A DNA stretch of 64,000 bases from NCBI GenBank assembly GCA_014695255.1, contig JACJNX010000053.1, positions 1-64,000 of the forward strand, in the 5' to 3' direction. The translations under genes were made by a program, and so were the position numbers. This document shows, in pieces, positions 45,962-53,211 of the stretch; within the stretch, counting starts at the first letter, position 1; the number at the start of each line of letters is the position of its first letter. Source of the stretch: Cyanobacteria bacterium FACHB-63. Lineage in GTDB: Bacteria; Cyanobacteriota; Cyanobacteriia; Leptolyngbyales; Leptolyngbyaceae. The notes below the pieces were generated by a model. The model saw nothing but the letters and a program-made list of their open reading frames with translations, was not told the DNA's origin and did no database searches.

Positions 45962-47026
45962 TCAACGCGCAGCAGCAAGAAGCTGATCGACTTGCTTTGC
46001 CGTTTCAAAGAAGTAAGCCGCATTTTCCTCCGGAGTATTGGGGAGAATGCCGTGTCCGAGGTTCAAAATGTGACCCCGGTTGCCTGCTTTGCGAATCGTA
46101 TCGAGAATGCGATCGCGGATGAATTCCTTCGAGCCAAACAGCACGCCCGGATCAAGGTTGCCTTGCACTTTCATCTCTTTACCGAGTCGAGCACGAGCAT
46201 CCGCCATATCGACTGTCCAATCGATCGTCAAGATATCCGCTCCCGCTTTTGCCATGCGTTCTAGGAGTCCAGCGCTTCCTGTAACCAACAGAATCAGCGG
46301 CGTATCCGGATGCACCTGTTTAATTTTGCGGAACACTTGCTGCTGATACGGCAACGCAAACGTATCGTAATCTTGGGGGCTGAGTTGTCCTGCCCAAGAA
46401 TCGAACATTTGGATCACTTGTGCGCCGCAGTCAATTTGATAGCAAGCGTAAGTTGCGATCGCATCTGCCAGCTTCGACAACAATTGATGCAGAATCGCCG
46501 GATCAGAAAACGCCATGTTTTTGATGATCGAATAGGTTTTCGATCCTTTACCTTCGACCGCGTAAGCGGCTAATGTCCAAGGCGCACCGACAAATCCCAG
46601 AACCGTTGCTTCGTTTTTGACTTCTTCGCGCAGAGACTTCAGAATCGTTTTGATAAACGGCATCGTTTCTTCGGGAACGAGTGGATGCAGTCGATCGATC
46701 TGTGCCTGAGTACGAATCGGATCAGCAATGATCGGGCCTTTTCCTTCAGCGATATCCATTTCGATGCCAAGACCCGGAAGCGGAGTCACAATGTCGGAAA
46801 ACAGAATCACGCCATCCGGCTTAAATGCTCGCCAGGGTTGCAGCGACACTTCGATCGCGACTTCTGGAATCTCAGAGCGTTCGCGGAACGACGGATAGCG
46901 ATCGCGCAAATCTCGATAGGCTTTCATATAGCGACCAGCCTGTCGCATCATCCAAACTGGGGGACGATCTAACACTTCGCCCCGTGCTGCCCGTAACAAA
47001 AGTGGAAGTTGCGAAGAACCCGTCAT
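45962..47026 (-). CDS. hemE: uroporphyrinogen decarboxylase
   Basis: Decarboxylates uroporphyrinogen III to coproporphyrinogen III for heme, chlorophyll and bilins. 354 residues; signatures [13 protein letters not shown] (N-terminal) and [16 protein letters not shown] are intact. Single-gene unit. Confidence 0.97.
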
Positions 47027-47271
47027 GCAGAAGCCTCTTGATAAAACCTTTTGTTTTCTACGTTTCTTAGCCTATCACTGTCCGGGATCTCGTATTGCCG
47101 CAACCCCAATGAATGTAACGGTTTTGAAATATTCCATCGCTCAAACGACCGATGTTTGTAACCACGAAATAGCTCTAATAACAGAGACACTTCTCAAGCT
47201 TTAGTCAGATTAATTTGGGGTTTGAAATTTCTATTCTGAAGCTGTTCAAGGTTGATAAAAGGATAAAAACA

Positions 47272-47568
47272 ATGACTAAATTTGCTGCAAAACTCGCATT
47301 GGCTTCTGCTTTGATTTTGGCTCCGATGTCGCTGCCTGCAATGAGCCAAACTGGAACCGGTACTGGAACTGGAACCGGTACTGGAACTGGAACGACGACT
47401 CAAGACGCAGGGTATCACCAAGAAGGACGCAACGGTTACTGGGGTCTGTTGGGCTTGCTCGGTTTGTTCGGTTTGATGGGACGCAAGAGCCGCGATGAGC
47501 ATTCTTCGACGGGTGCAACGGCATATCGTGACCCCGCAGACGTATCGGGAACCCGCGATCGCTACTAA
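47272..47568 (+). CDS. exported WGxxGxxG-family small protein
   Basis: 98 residues: signal peptide (MTKFAAKLALASALILAP, cleavage near AMSQ), a Thr-Gly dipeptide stretch from an 18-bp tandem repeat, then the WGLLGLLGLFGLMGRKSR segment of the WGxxGxxG family (a hydrophobic helix followed by a basic cluster, like a sorting signal), and a polar tail. ATG at 47272 is chosen since it begins the signal. Function and processing partner unknown. Confidence 0.8.
   Translation: MTKFAAKLALASALILAPMSLPAMSQTGTGTGTGTGTGTGTTTQDAGYHQEGRNGYWGLLGLLGLFGLMGRKSRDEHSSTGATAYRDPADVSGTRDRY
47353..47388 (+). repeat. 18-bp tandem repeat encoding TG dipeptides
   Basis: GGAACCGGTACTGGAACT occurs twice exactly (47353-47370, 47371-47388) with a partial third copy, within the WGxxGxxG gene. 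Copy number is likely variable. Confidence 0.85.
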
Positions 47569-47637: not shown

Positions 47638-49266
47638 TTAATCGTGCAAATCTGCGTCCCAAACTCCGACATAAATTCGATCGCGCTCATTCCGCTCAAT
47701 CACCCCTTTGAGATTGCCTTGCTGAAATCGATAGCGATCGCGTTCTCGGCGATACACTTGCTTCAATCCGTTAATGATTTCCGGTGTTGCACGACTCCCT
47801 AGCATTCCATTGACCGTCACTTGCACCGTTAAATCATCAACCGATTGAGCAAACGATACTTCAGTTTGGCGGACTTGATTTGTGCTGCGATCGTACAGAT
47901 AGGCAAGCGTAATTCGATCGGGCACAACTTCATACAAAGCGCTGCGAGTATTTTGCCAATAGCCACGACCCGTTTGTGCAGGTTCTCCGAGGGCTGATCG
48001 AACTTCTTGTTCAGAAGTGCCGACCGGAAAACCAGGAATGCGACCCGTCGATTGAGTGTTTGTCTGAGGTGGCGGAGCAAGTGGAGACGGCTCGATCGGA
48101 GTGGGGGACGGTGTAATCGAGACGCTGGGTTTTGGGCGCGGCGATTCGGCTTGGACGACGGGCGGACGCGGAGAATCAGACGGCGTAGGTGAAACCGAAG
48201 GAAGGGGACTTGGAGAATTCAGCGTTACGGCAGGTTCAGAGGTTTGGCGCGATCGTGGCGAGAGGAGAGCGATCGCAACTCCGGTTAGGGTGAGTCCTGT
48301 TAAAGCTGCAAGCAGCCACGCCATGCGCAATCCTCGCTTTGCAGGTGCTGCAATCGGTTCAGGATTTGGGATATGGGCGACAGTGGCAGCGGTTGCAGTT
48401 GAAGCTCTGGGAAGCTGCGTTACTGAAGCCGTGAAATTCTGCGGCAGCGGGGCGGAATCCTGCGGCAGAAGGGATAGCCATTCTGCCACGCTGGCAGGAC
48501 GCAGGGTAGCATCCATCGCCATACCACGCAAAATGGCCTGATTCACACCCGGACTCATCGAGGGTTGGAGTTCCCGCGGTTCGGGCATTCGTTCATGATC
48601 TCGTAGAATTGATGCGATCGGAACGGTTGCTGTTACTAATGCGTAGAGTGTTGCGGCTAAACCGTAAACATCGCTTGCGGGACTGCGTTTTTGTTGAGCG
48701 AAATATTGTTCGATCGGCGCATATCCGACTGACATCATTTGGGTATGCACTTGCGTTGAATTGGGTGTAAATTCCCGTGCAATGCCAAAATCAATCAGAA
48801 TGGCTTCTTGGGTTCCTTCGCGAATAATAATGTTGTCGGGTTTGATATCTCGATGCAGCAATCCGTTGCGGTGAACCACTTGCAGCGCCGAGCCGATTTG
48901 TCGAACGTAGTGAATTGCGATCGCTTCCGGTAGCGGTCGATTCGGGAAAACAATTTCCTCAAGCGTCTTGCCTGGAATGTAATCCATCACCATGTACGAG
49001 CGATCGTTTTCGATGAAAAAATCACTCACGCGCACAATGTTCGGATGCACACAGAGCGCTAACCGCCGCGCCTCATCCTGGAATTTGCGCTCGAAATCGG
49101 CAAAATTTCGCTCGAATCGTAACGACTCATTCAACGTTTTGATCACTACAGTTTGATGCAAAAAGTGATGAATCGCCTTATAGGTCACACCAAATCCACC
49201 CTGACCAATAACCGCTTGCAGGGTGTACTTACCATTCGAGAGCGTTGTACCAACGAGAGAATCCAT
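47638..49266 (-). CDS. membrane-anchored serine/threonine protein kinase
   Basis: 542 residues: kinase at about 14-270 ([43 protein letters not shown]), a transmembrane helix near 312-330 ([21 protein letters not shown]), a Pro/Ser-rich linker, and a C-terminal extracytoplasmic domain of about 130 residues (begins [14 protein letters not shown]) that could sense a signal. The upstream histidine kinase gene is only 21 bp away, so they are likely cotranscribed. Confidence 0.93.
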
Positions 49267-49287
49267 GCCAAACCAAGCTTGACCGCT

Positions 49288-50109
49288 TTATGATTGAACC
49301 GCATTTCGAGGTAGAGTGCATCGGAGCTGAGTGATAGTTTCTGCTGAGTTCATGGGCAGCTTGACCAATTCTAACCGACCCTTCATGAACTCCATGAGAT
49401 TCTGATTCAGCAATAAACTAAATCCTAACGAGGGCGATTCTAAATCGGGTGGCGCTTCTAGTTTGAGCAAACCGATCGCTTCTTGCCAAACCTCGATCGG
49501 GCGCTCGTCTTCCAAATCGATATACACAAAATTTGGATCTGCGTGTGCCGAAAGTTTAATCGAGCCTTCTTGCATCGTCGCGATCGCGCCGCTAATCAAA
49601 CTGGTTAACACTTGCAAGAGCGATTTGCGATCGGCAATAACCTCAAGGTCTGGATCGGGTGAGGCTAAATGAAAGGGTAAATTCCGATTTTCCGATAATA
49701 GATGCGTTAAAGAATACACATTATCAAACACATCAGAAATAGAAACAGGCTGTAAGTCTAATTTGCCTGTTCCGTATTCAGTTTTAGAAATATGAATAAC
49801 TTCATCAAGTAGCTTGACCAGCTTTAGTGCAGACTCATTTGCCTGGGCAATAAATTCGCGTTCTTCTTCAGGCGATTCGCATAAGTCCGCAAGAATGAGC
49901 TGATGTGCGCCAATCATGCCGTTGAGAGGCGATCGTAATTCATGAGACGTTCGTGCCAGAAATCCCGCTTTAAATTGGCTGAGTTCAAGCAGCGATCGAT
50001 ACGCCAATTCAAGCTCCTGATTATTCTTGGGAGCGTTTCGTGCCAACCGTCCAGCGATAAAACCGAAACTCAATCCTGCAATTAAATTAATCCAATCCAT
50101 ACTTACCAC
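49288..50109 (-). CDS. histidine kinase-like protein with degenerate ATPase domain
   Basis: 273 residues: an N-terminal membrane helix (about 7-24), a short coiled segment, a good dimerisation/H-box RTSHELRSPLNG (His56), then a GHKL-like region where the N-box (LTSLISGAIATM) lacks the conserved Asn and no DxGxG is seen. It may not autophosphorylate, acting instead as a phosphotransfer or pseudokinase. 40 bp downstream of the BMP gene. Confidence 0.75.
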   Translation of the reverse strand: MVSMDWINLIAGLSFGFIAGRLARNAPKNNQELELAYRSLLELSQFKAGFLARTSHELRSPLNGMIGAHQLILADLCESPEEEREFIAQANESALKLVKLLDEVIHISKTEYGTGKLDLQPVSISDVFDNVYSLTHLLSENRNLPFHLASPDPDLEVIADRKSLLQVLTSLISGAIATMQEGSIKLSAHADPNFVYIDLEDERPIEVWQEAIGLLKLEAPPDLESPSLGFSLLLNQNLMEFMKGRLELVKLPMNSAETITQLRCTLPRNAVQS

Positions 50110-50149
50110 CGCTAATCCCGTCTATGAGTTTAGCGGTGGCAGTGAATTT

Positions 50150-51349
50150 CTAGGCGGTTTTGCCGACGACACCTTCAACCAGCCAGTTCATCGACTCAAG
50201 CTCGATCGCGGTTGCGCTGTAATCTTTACCTGCTGGAACAACTGTTTTTCCGGTGTTATCTTTCAAGCCCCCTTTGTAAATCACCAGCGATCCAGCCCGC
50301 ATCTTATCTCTTGCGGCTTCTGCATCTTTTTTCGCGACGTCCGTCACCGCAGGACCAAACGCCGAGATCTTCACAAACTCGTCTTTATAGCCCCCTCTAA
50401 GCAAATGCGGAATTCCGCCATTCATCAGCGTCTTGCCTTCTTGAATCATCTTGGCGTATTCGCTATACACCTTTGTCCAATCCCACTCTGCACCCGTCAG
50501 ATAGCCCTTCGGTGCCAGTGATGACTGGTTGGCGTGATAGCCCGACGTAAACACACCCCGTTTTTCTGCGGTTTCCATCACCACTTTCGGGCTGTCCACA
50601 TGGCAGGTAATCACATCTGCGCCTTGGTCAACTAAGCTGTTTGTGGCTTCCGCTTCTTTGACCGGGAGCGACCAATCCCCCGTGAAAATCACCTGAGTTG
50701 TGATGTTCGGCTTGATGCTGCGTGCGCCTAACGTGAAACTGTTGATGTTGCGAAGCACTTGCGGAATCGGTTTTGCCGCCACAAAACCGAGCTTGCCTGT
50801 TTTGCTCATGTGTCCAGCAACGACACCCGCAACGTATTGAGCTTCGTCAATGTAGCCGAAGTAGCTTCCTACATTTTTTGGGTGTTTGCTGGCATCGTAG
50901 AGTCCGCCACAGTGGAAGAACTGCACTTCAGGATAATCGGTGGCAAGCTTGAGAATATGCGGGTCGAAGTAGCCGAATGACGTTGGAAACAAGACCGTGG
51001 CTTTATCTTGCTCGATCATGTTTCGCATGGCTTCTTGAACTTCGGTCGTTTCAGGAACGCTGGCTTGATCGACCGTTTTGACATTCAAGGCTTTCAACCC
51101 TTCTTTGCCCTGAAAGTGCGCCTGGTTGTAGCCGAAGTCATCTTTAGGCCCAACGTAGATGAACCCCATGACAAGCTCTTTTCCTGCCGCTGGACTTGCA
51201 CCTGTCGTCGTTGTTGCGTTGTTTGTATTGTTAGCGGGCGTACATCCTGTCCAGAGTTTCGAGGTTGCACCAAAGGCTCCGGTCGCCAGAAGTCCCCGCA
51301 CAACCTGACGGCGGGAAACTCGCGAATGGCGATCATCATTCTTGCTCAT
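50150..51349 (-). CDS. BMP-family ABC solute-binding protein
   Basis: 399-residue exported binding protein: twin-arginine SRRQVVRGLLATGAFG, then lipobox-like LWTGC. The body matches the BMP/PnrA/Med family (GFIYVGPKDDFGYNQAH, YIDEAQYVAGVVAGHMSKTGK). These bind nucleosides or other small ligands. ABC permease and ATPase genes are not nearby. It follows the hydrolase gene by 75 bp, so it may bind an amide-type nitrogen source. Confidence 0.88.
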   Translation of the reverse strand: MSKNDDRHSRVSRRQVVRGLLATGAFGATSKLWTGCTPANNTNNATTTTGASPAAGKELVMGFIYVGPKDDFGYNQAHFQGKEGLKALNVKTVDQASVPETTEVQEAMRNMIEQDKATVLFPTSFGYFDPHILKLATDYPEVQFFHCGGLYDASKHPKNVGSYFGYIDEAQYVAGVVAGHMSKTGKLGFVAAKPIPQVLRNINSFTLGARSIKPNITTQVIFTGDWSLPVKEAEATNSLVDQGADVITCHVDSPKVVMETAEKRGVFTSGYHANQSSLAPKGYLTGAEWDWTKVYSEYAKMIQEGKTLMNGGIPHLLRGGYKDEFVKISAFGPAVTDVAKKDAEAARDKMRAGSLVIYKGGLKDNTGKTVVPAGKDYSATAIELESMNWLVEGVVGKTA

Positions 51350-51424
51350 CGTTGATTCCTTTTTCGGATACTAATAGACGCGATCGATTGAAGTCTGTTT
51401 CCTCCGATCAGATTGTATAGTCTG

Positions 51425-52111
51425 TCACAATCCTGCTTTTAGGGCGGTGATGAGCGCGATCGAGTCGGAGACTGCTCCAAAGACACCGCCCTGCATTTGA
51501 ATCATCTTCAGGGCGGCGAGGTGGTTTCCATAATCAGTTGCGCCCGTGCAGTCAGACAGCAGTAAGCATTCGTAACCGCGATCGTTCGCATCTCTCATCG
51601 TGGTGTGTACACAGACATCGGTTGTAATCCCGGTCAGAATCAAATTCTGAATGTTCTTGCGTTTCAGAATCAGATCCAGATCAGTTGCATAAAACGAGCC
51701 TTTTCCGGGTTTGTCGATGATCACTTCTCCGGGCAAGGGTGCCAGTTCAGGAATGATCTCCCATCCAGGTTCGCCACGCACGAGAATTCTTCCACAAGGG
51801 CCTGGATCACCAATTCCAGCGCCGATTTGCTGCGATCGCCAGCGTTTATTCTCTGGGAGATCTGACAAATCCGGGCGGTGTCCTTCGCGGGTGTGAATGA
51901 TTGTGTAGTTGAGTGATCGCATGACCATCAACAGGGTGCGGATGGGTTCGATCGGGGCGCGAGTGAGCGACAAATCATAGCCCATTTTGTCAACATACCC
52001 GCCCTTGCCGCAGAAGTCCGTTTGCATATCAATTACAATCAGTGCGGTGTTTTCAGGACGCAGATCGCCATTAAACGGATAGGGATACGGATCAGCCTCG
52101 ACAAACATCAT
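51425..52111 (-). CDS. isochorismatase-like cysteine hydrolase
   Basis: 228 residues of the cysteine-hydrolase superfamily with catalytic Asp28 (IVIDMQTDF), Lys134 (IDKPGKGSF) and Cys167 (TDVCVHTT). Members include biuret hydrolase, RutB and nicotinamidase; the linked formamidase suggests an amide or urea-like substrate. The ATG at 52111 is preferred since the next gene ends at 52114, a 2-bp gap. Confidence 0.9.
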
Positions 52112-52113
52112 GC

Positions 52114-53139
52114 TTAACCTCCAGTCACAGAGGTCGGGAGTTCTTCGCCACGGTACGATCGTGTGGGAGCCGCGAATCCGCAAGAGGTTCCATCGGTGTA
52201 CATCACTTCGTCTTCCCAAGGCAAGCGATAACTGCCATTGACTAAATCTTGCATGTAAGTGTAAGGACAGTCCTGCGCTCCACCTTTTACCGCCACATAG
52301 CCGCGATGTCCGAACTGATAGATATTGTTTTCAACGCTCCAATGCTTCCGGGCTTCACGCACCAGATCCGGGCGTAGCTCTGCGGTGATAATTTCATCCG
52401 GGCGATGGCTACCCAGCACCAACGGCGCACCGTCAAAGTTCACAAACATTCCTTCACCCATCGAATCAAATGTGCCATCGGTGCCACACATACAAACTGA
52501 GGCAGTGTACATCAGATTGCAAAAAGCGTTCGATTGGTTAGTGACTTGCCAAGAGTGACGAATTGGAGCGGTGTAGCCCGCGGTACGAATCATGATTTCT
52601 GCACCTTTGTAGGCACATTCACGCGCCATCTCCGGGAACATTCCATCGTGACAAATGATGAGCGCGATCGTGCTGCCGTTTGGACCTTCACACACAGGAA
52701 TTCCCAAGTTTCCAGGCTCCCACGGTTCGACCGGAACCCAAGGATGCAGCTTGCGGTAATACAGTTTCAGTTCTCCAGTGTCGTCGATGATGATGCCGCT
52801 GTTGTAGGGATTGCCGTGGGGATTGTATTCCATGATCGAAAAGCATCCCCAGATGCGATTGTCCCGGCAAGCTTTCTGAAACGCTTGGACTTCTTTTCCG
52901 TCTAAGCGGCACATGATTTCTGGGTTGGTGTCCATCGACAAGCCATGCAGCGAGTATTCAGGGAAGACCACCAGATCCATCGTCGGCATATTTCGTCGCG
53001 CTTTGCCGACCATTTGACAGATCCGATCGGTCTGCGCCGTCAGATCATCCGGTGTCACCACGGTCGGAAGCTGCAACTGCACCATCCCCAAAACCACACC
53101 GTTTGGAGTCTTATTTAATCCACCCAGTCCACTCATCAA
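52114..53139 (-). CDS. amiF: formamidase (nitrilase family)
   Basis: 341 residues; hydrolyses formamide to formate and ammonia (or another short amide). The nitrilase triad is Glu60 (FPEYS), Lys129 (YYRKLHPW) and Cys162 (ICHDGM). The overall match to AmiF/AmiE amidases is strong, with [29 protein letters not shown] and [14 protein letters not shown]. The broad-range AmiE is less likely. First gene of the nitrogen-scavenging cluster. Confidence 0.88.
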
Positions 53140-53160: not shown

Positions 53161-53180
53161 GTGTGTCAGCTTTATCACAC
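53161..53180. promoter_or_regulatory. inverted repeat upstream of amiF
   Basis: GTGTG-N10-CACAC (53161-53165, 53176-53180), 22 bp before the amiF start, covering the expected -10 region. Candidate operator. Confidence 0.35.
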
Positions 53181-53197: not shown

Positions 53198-53211
53198 GTG
53201 CTTTACGATAC
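53198..53211 (-). promoter_or_regulatory. NtcA-like site upstream of amiF
   Basis: On the minus strand GTATCGTAAAGCAC, one mismatch from GTAN8TAC, followed 20-24 nt later by an AT-rich GATAAAG. Consistent with nitrogen control, but weaker than the ntcB promoter. Confidence 0.35.

Follow-up and report, generated by a model that had tools for sequence, protein, structure and literature searches.

Two adjacent gene units in Cyanobacteria bacterium FACHB-63: a probable part of a dispersed triuret, biuret, and formamide nitrogen-scavenging system with a split ABC importer, beside a kinase-like pair

We analyzed 64,000 nucleotides of contig JACJNX010000053.1 from Cyanobacteria bacterium FACHB-63 (the window; positions below are those of the window), in which five genes follow one another on the minus strand: amiF, biuH, the gene for a BMP solute-binding protein, and the genes for a degenerate histidine kinase (HK) and a membrane Ser/Thr kinase (STK). 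The row probably consists of two adjacent, independent units. Unit 1 (amiF-biuH-bmp) would be part of a dispersed system that scavenges nitrogen from triuret, biuret, and formamide through a split ABC importer; unit 2 comprises HK, STK, and hemE. This conclusion is based directly on the identities of the genes by sequence, the synteny of the two units, permease genes that lack a BMP gene, and co-occurrence across genomes; the pairing of BMP with that permease, the exact ligand, control by NtcA, and the enzyme activities are inferred. The genome of the window is called G000 and its genus g1; the other g1 genomes are G170, G115, G251, G211, G197, G265, and G282. The features are listed in Table 1.

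A check of the open reading frames (ORFs) of the window reproduced the row of the original prediction, with five minus-strand ORFs at 47638-53139 and gaps of 2, 75, 40, and 21 bp. The ATG start of amiF is at 53136, and the 53139 listed earlier is a TTG three bases upstream. The HK ORF was listed as 49288-50109, with a gap of 40 to BMP; a more probable start is the ATG at 50100, for which an aligned ATG exists in G170, G115, G251, and G211, and the gap is then 49. The labels formamidase and cysteine hydrolase were both correct, and the second could be sharpened to biuret amidohydrolase (BiuH). AmiF scored 581.9 bits against the curated profile model NF009803 (cut-off 406), whereas its 234.5 bits against the aliphatic amidase model are under that model's cut-off of 427. 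The catalytic residues of formamidases are Glu, Lys, and Cys; the motifs FPEYS, YRKL, and ICHDG of AmiF align with the formamidase structures 5g3o and 2dyu. BiuH scored 421.6 bits against NF050097 (cut-off 370), and it matched the structure of the BiuH of Rhizobium leguminosarum 3841 (6azo, 417.9 bits). For this enzyme an Asp36-Lys142-Cys175 triad is described, together with Lys145, Gln215, and Phe41 (PMC5806882). All six residues are present in the BiuH of the window and in 42/42 aligned cyanobacterial BiuH rows; the gene neighborhood in Rhizobium is different. The third protein matched PF02608 (133.8 bits), and its nearest solved relatives are AtzT (6pi5, 198.3 bits) and 3s99 (182 bits). Its Tat-type RR (R13 R14) and lipobox C36 are invariant in 10 aligned BMP sequences, including that of the window.

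The original prediction had joined the two kinases to the amide genes and had asked for the same gene order in other cyanobacteria. The order recurs within g1: the five genes stand as in the window in G170, G251, G211, and G197, and also in G115, where about 1 kb interrupts the HK gene (L069 10125-11926) and the amide genes and STK are open. In G265, BiuH-BMP and HK-STK are on different contigs, and in G282, whose genome is in 1060 contigs, PermA-PermB (see below) are present with no match to BMP or BiuH. Outside g1, HK-STK-HemE stands apart as a block in four genomes from two other genera (G034 and G048 in g3, G095 and G288 in g7), and no amide gene was seen beside these blocks; the amide genes of these genomes are elsewhere or absent altogether, with none of BiuH, BMP, and PermA found in G034. 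HK-STK without amide genes beside it also occurs in G313 (g18), at a contig end. Adjacency of the two units was observed in g1 only. An HK or STK homologue with at least 45% identity was found near BMP in none of 80 loci from named genomes (flanks up to 8 kb, often less); of at least 587 relatives only the best 80 were kept, and close kin of G000 may be missing from them.

A hairpin between the BMP stop and the HK start is a probable boundary of the units. It has a stem of about 12 pairs, and the 65-nt stretch containing it folds at -25.6 kcal/mol (z -5.09, with 0/200 shuffles as good). It is kept in the window, G170, G115, G251, and G211, that is, in 5/7 genus genomes examined. We call it a boundary element and not a proven terminator because it lacks a T-run. 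We distinguish two units because HK-STK-HemE occurs elsewhere without amide genes, G034 has no amide system, the HK of G115 is broken, and the hairpin lies between them; membership of the kinases in an amide operon was rejected on cross-genus gene order. Unit 2 would then predate the five-gene row and be unrelated to unit 1.

Several observations weigh against this separation. The hairpin is absent in G197 and G265, and where present it is without a T-run. Pattern scans for promoters and terminators gave no excess (4 promoters vs 7.8 expected, 6 terminators vs 8.3), so read-through into HK is possible. Unit 1 stays beside HK in five of the six genus relatives that have a BMP, and a young functional link would look the same. 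Outside the five-gene rows, 24 STK loci of the family were fetched, and in 18 of them the STK homologue lacks a neighboring HK; the HK-STK pair is therefore not universal, being found in some genera, yet it is wider than the five-gene row. The short gaps, the shared strand, and the same order in G170, G251, G211, G197, and, bar the broken HK, G115 would suit a single sensing-and-scavenging operon, with BMP as a sensor subunit and both kinases passing on its signal; the degenerate HK could serve as an adaptor. We nevertheless regard such an operon as very improbable, given the HK-STK-HemE blocks in two other genera, the missing amide system of G034, the broken HK of G115, the separated units of G265, the hairpin in five of seven genomes, and a permease set without a BMP gene in G000.

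The HK-like protein is a puzzle separate from the amide genes. The original prediction was right that it lacks an N-box, and this lack seems to be common to the entire HK family. The phospho-acceptor His is present in 54/54 aligned rows (repeats included), and the N-box and G-boxes are degenerate across the alignment, as judged by eye; by these motifs the family does not qualify as functional histidine kinases. The folds nearest to the structure model (pLDDT 73) are histidine kinases, GacS and RetS first and DivL lower in the list. RetS and DivL are degenerate signaling partners. This small membrane HK family was matched in 102/194 cyanobacterial genomes at E 1e-30; some of the matches are longer and perhaps ordinary kinases.

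The absence of an ABC permease beside BMP had led to the proposal that the protein acts as a sensor subunit. The absence holds locally; genome-wide it does not. A single close match to PermA was found in G000 (C68:94510-95559, 68% identity), and two further matches reach 32 and 29%. The genes for PermB and an ATPase come after the close match, without a BMP gene. A binding protein without a transporter in its genome was thereby rejected, and the sensor-subunit reading is unsupported, since G000 has a permease-ATPase set that lacks a binding protein and belongs to a family that adjoins BMP homologues. In other cyanobacteria, a row headed by the same BMP family reads BMP-PermA-PermB-(AmiF)-BiuH-ATPase-(cupin)-(second isochorismatase)-(AH_C). 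At 45 PermA loci outside the genus, chosen by hand, BMP is present in 41 and BMP plus BiuH in 21. Upstream of PermA, BMP was found in 0/8 genus loci, where the contigs of G265 and G282 end within the set. Eight genomes of the window's family (G000, G115, G170, G211, G251, G265, G288, and G318) each have exactly one BMP at E 1e-60 and exactly one PermA at E 1e-80, and the two are unlinked.

The PermA phylogeny (53 rows) places the eight genus sequences in one clade (100/100), which is nested in a larger clade (99/98) with 26 members, of which 24 are from the window's family. The BMP phylogeny, calculated with a quick method and not a careful search, groups the genus BMPs with the family's other unlinked BMPs and one outsider (support 90); a separate clade holds 14 permease-linked BMPs, 12 of them from the window's family (100). 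The simplest reading of these data is a split transporter, in which the BMP of unit 1 would work with the distant permease on C68; the contact between the two proteins we infer.

Co-occurrence was assessed in 388 genomes of the cyanobacterial class, with thresholds of E 1e-80 for BiuH and PermA and 1e-60 for BMP. BiuH was found in 149 genomes, PermA in 156, and BMP in 161; all three were present together in 140, and none of the three in 223. Both BMP and PermA occur in 154 genomes, BMP only in 7, PermA only in 2, and neither in 225. The genomes were counted as independent and their kinship ignored, and the significance is therefore overstated. As a separate observation, the cyanuric acid hydrolase/barbiturase family PF09663 is present in 50/388 genomes, and 49 of the 50 also have an AtzT-type BMP.

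The pairing of BMP with the C68 permease also has to be weighed against other partners. Two further BMP genes of G000 have permease homologues beside them, and with these sets the BMP of unit 1 might in principle also work. At the unlinked-BMP loci of the family (L090-L098), a gene for a DAO-type oxidoreductase adjoins BMP in 9/9 and one for a SomB-type porin is near it in 8/9; the ancestral partner may therefore have been other than BiuH. On this ground, BMP might no longer feed an importer and might work alone or with other proteins, for example a porin in the outer membrane together with an FAD-dependent oxidase. We think this very improbable: BMP and PermA are missing together, with only the nine genomes given above having one of the two; the BMP of g1 adjoins BiuH and not a porin or oxidase; and both of these partners are also compatible with import.

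To compare the binding pockets we aligned 67 BMP rows, three of which are repeat copies (window, G170, G115), in AtzT numbering (chain index plus 5, which agrees with all seven published contacts placed). AtzT holds guanine with a dissociation constant of about 110 nM, and its guanine contacts include Glu165 and Asn220 (PMC6834077). The BMP of the window has Y, W, S, and F at AtzT Tyr45, Trp194, Ser97, and Phe98, so that an AtzT-like aromatic clamp is present. Throughout the alignment Trp194 and Asp220 do not vary, and position 45 holds Tyr or Trp; His218 occurs in 65/67 rows and Ser97 in 66/67. Position 165 is Gln in 48 rows, Pro in 14, and another residue in 5; 12/14 Pro165 rows are from the window's family, and 11 of these 12 are in loci without BiuH. 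The window's BMP has Gln at Glu165 and Asp at Asn220, so the pocket differs from that of AtzT at two guanine contacts, which counts against our main reading. For this reason we filed the protein as AtzT-type and not as a guanine binder. Since the planar clamp is retained while the hydrogen-bond partners differ, the ligand could plausibly be purine-like or a ureide; specificity for guanine is unsupported. A second, solitary BMP copy in G197 (L103 8090-9277) has an altered pocket, with Tyr98, Val165, and Arg218.

The importer might instead take whole purines (guanine or adenine) in the manner of AtzT, with BiuH and AmiF clearing downstream or unrelated waste and the system serving purine salvage. 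The affinity of AtzT for guanine, the clamp kept in all 67 rows (Tyr/Trp45, Trp194), and an Asp220 and His218 that match those of the adenine-modelled 3s99 are consistent with this. However, Glu165 is replaced by Gln (by Pro in another subgroup) and Asn220 by Asp, and the enzymes of the operon attack linear ureides; genes that degrade the purine ring were not searched for. We consider purine import unlikely, though a good deal less so than the two alternatives above.

The remaining genes for a ureide pathway are present in G000 at other loci. A second isochorismatase, on C141 (L089), matched TrtA with 291 bits, vs at most 199 for BiuH chains. In this protein, as in each of 34 aligned sequences of the same type (one a repeat), the residues F35, N41, V157, and E160 of TrtA (6xix, PMC7948467) are present; the 42 BiuH rows have Y, Y, I or V, and D at these positions throughout. 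The C141 gene is not beside other genes of the system. On C138, an AtzE-family amidase (749.8 bits vs a cut-off of 461) is preceded by a protein that consists of a stand-alone allophanate-hydrolase C-terminal domain (AH_C). Urease alpha is over its cut-off in 13/13 genomes examined, including G000, where it is on C101; full-length AtzF (TIGR02713) is over its cut-off in 1/13 and below it in G000. With these genes, the steps from triuret over carboxybiuret, biuret, and allophanate to urea or ammonia would be encodable. Cyanuric acid as an entry point in G000 was rejected, as PF09663 (cyanuric acid hydrolase) gave no match in G000 or in the other seven genomes of the genus. Small AH_C proteins were seen among the system genes, or no more than about 1 kb away from them, at 10 fetched cyanobacterial and three Nitrospira loci; examples of the stand-alone form are L271 9546-9929 and L076 8832-9245.

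We therefore propose that the BMP lipoprotein may capture a small nitrogen-rich molecule and deliver it to the PermA-PermB-ATPase importer encoded on C68. Inside the cell, BiuH would take ammonia from biuret to give allophanate and AmiF would cleave formamide; the TrtA-like hydrolase (C141), the AtzE-family amidase with AH_C (C138), and urease (C101) would finish triuret, carboxybiuret, and urea. The decarboxylation may be spontaneous or carried out by AH_C, whose role here is a guess. The general idea of amide-nitrogen scavenging in the original prediction is thus supported and made specific for biuret, formamide, and probably triuret.

The consensus of NtcA sites is GTAN8TAC. A block of GTA-N8-(T/C)AC, about 20 nt, and GTGTGATAAAG precedes amiF in 6/7 genus genomes examined (the window and 5/6 relatives); the GTAN8TAC part is perfect in G197 and G211 and has one mismatch in the window, G170, G115, and G251. 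GTAN8TAC was found in 12/60 regions upstream of BMP vs 32/763 of other genes (repeats removed; Fisher p 2.6e-5, with kinship ignored). For the other genes of interest the counts are 3/16 for amiF, 3/21 for biuH, 2/21 for permA, 0/11 for HK, and 0/21 for STK. These data suggest a nitrogen-control promoter before amiF, perhaps read by NtcA, which perhaps controls the amiF unit. The mismatch in the window itself and the lack of an NtcA-like site in the 120 bases before BiuH in G265 speak against it. The porin genes of the BMP-oxidoreductase-porin triplets (L090-L098) have GTAN8TAC in 5/12 upstream regions.

Table 1. Features of the window discussed in the text; all are on the minus strand.
Feature	Position	Strand	Basis
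NtcA-like site GTATCGTAAAGCAC in front of amiF (GTAN8TAC with one mismatch)	53198..53211	-	comparison within the genus
-10-like stretch GTGTGATAAAG, about 20 nt after the NtcA-like site	53169-53180	-	conserved in the genus
amiF, formamidase (nitrilase/CN-hydrolase superfamily)	52114..53136	-	NF009803; motif alignment with 5g3o and 2dyu
biuH, biuret amidohydrolase (isochorismatase-like cysteine hydrolase)	51425..52111	-	NF050097; 6azo; catalytic residues
bmp, AtzT-type solute-binding protein of the BMP family with a Tat-type lipoprotein signal	50150..51349	-	PF02608; 6pi5; R13 R14 C36
Hairpin TGCCACCGCTAA...TTAGCGGTGGTA, BMP stop to HK start, probable unit boundary	50104..50141	-	folding; conservation
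HK, degenerate histidine kinase, separate unit; His kept, ATP-binding motifs degenerate	49288..50100	-	alignment; structure model
STK, membrane Ser/Thr kinase, separate unit	47638..49266	-	PF00069, 143.5 bits; HK-STK-HemE synteny
hemE, uroporphyrinogen decarboxylase, conserved neighbour of HK-STK	45962..47026	-	PF01208, 416.2 bits; order in G034, G048, G095, and G288

Between STK and hemE, a small plus-strand ORF (47215-47568) contains a Gly-Thr run and a GYWGLLGLLGLFGL segment; a match to it is found at the same place in G170, G115, G251, and G211.

A related operon is known from nitrifiers. A cluster of bmpA-nupABC, trtA, biuH, and atzF is described in ammonia-oxidising bacteria and comammox, with trtB in the version of the ammonia-oxidising bacteria (PMC12625717); the word stem cyanobact is absent from the main text of that paper. 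The type of transporter, BiuH, and TrtA are common to the nitrifier cluster and the cyanobacterial system. BMP, the two permeases, the ATPase, BiuH, and TrtA are all present in G000 by sequence, on C129, C68, and C141; in g1, however, they do not form one cluster and are scattered over several loci. Cyanobacteria also differ in that they often have a formamidase and a stand-alone AH_C, with full-length AtzF over its cut-off in 1/13 genomes examined, as noted above. The kind of system is therefore known, and its spread in cyanobacteria, the formamidase, the separate AH_C, and the split importer are the differences. Three Nitrospira loci (L354, L356, L361) have BMP-PermA-PermB-BiuH-ATPase-TrtA-like-AH_C, an order that also occurs in cyanobacteria. 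Nodosilinea nodulosa PCC 7104 carries BMP-PermA-PermB-BiuH-ATPase-TrtA-like at a single locus (L362). Close relatives with 61-69% BMP identity were found in Nitrospira, where they are in operon-like order, in Pedosphaera, and on another contig of Verrucomicrobiota (L354, L355, L356, L361, L345, L359, L363). The Atz system of Pseudomonas sp. ADP (AtzT and a transporter, AtzDEF) offers the nearest solved binding protein and has an AtzE-family counterpart in G000; it differs in its cyanuric acid hydrolase, in the biuret step, which BiuH would perform here, and in the two pocket residues. The fmdA of Arthrospira/Limnospira PCC 8005, which is up under nitrogen limitation, was not taken as evidence; it is COG2421, a different family from AmiF.

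Keyword-level searches of the literature found no description of biuret or triuret as a nitrogen source of cyanobacteria, of a cyanobacterial cyanuric acid hydrolase, or of a related operon in cyanobacteria, yet 146/388 sampled genomes have a BiuH over the NF050097 cut-off. A tidy row of five genes can be two unrelated units, which only a comparison across genera reveals, and an apparent orphan binding protein becomes a testable split transporter. A wider reading, which we offer tentatively and hold to be possible but less likely than not, is that about two fifths of the sampled cyanobacterial species have an importer and hydrolase for polyurea waste (triuret, biuret, often formamide, and cyanuric-type rings in some lineages), with oxidised purines as the probable origin of this waste. 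The BMP pocket, with its Gln and Asp, would have left the AtzT guanine type and would take ureides or triazines directly, and one genus would have a split transporter, in which a BMP of a second type replaced the original partner of the permease.

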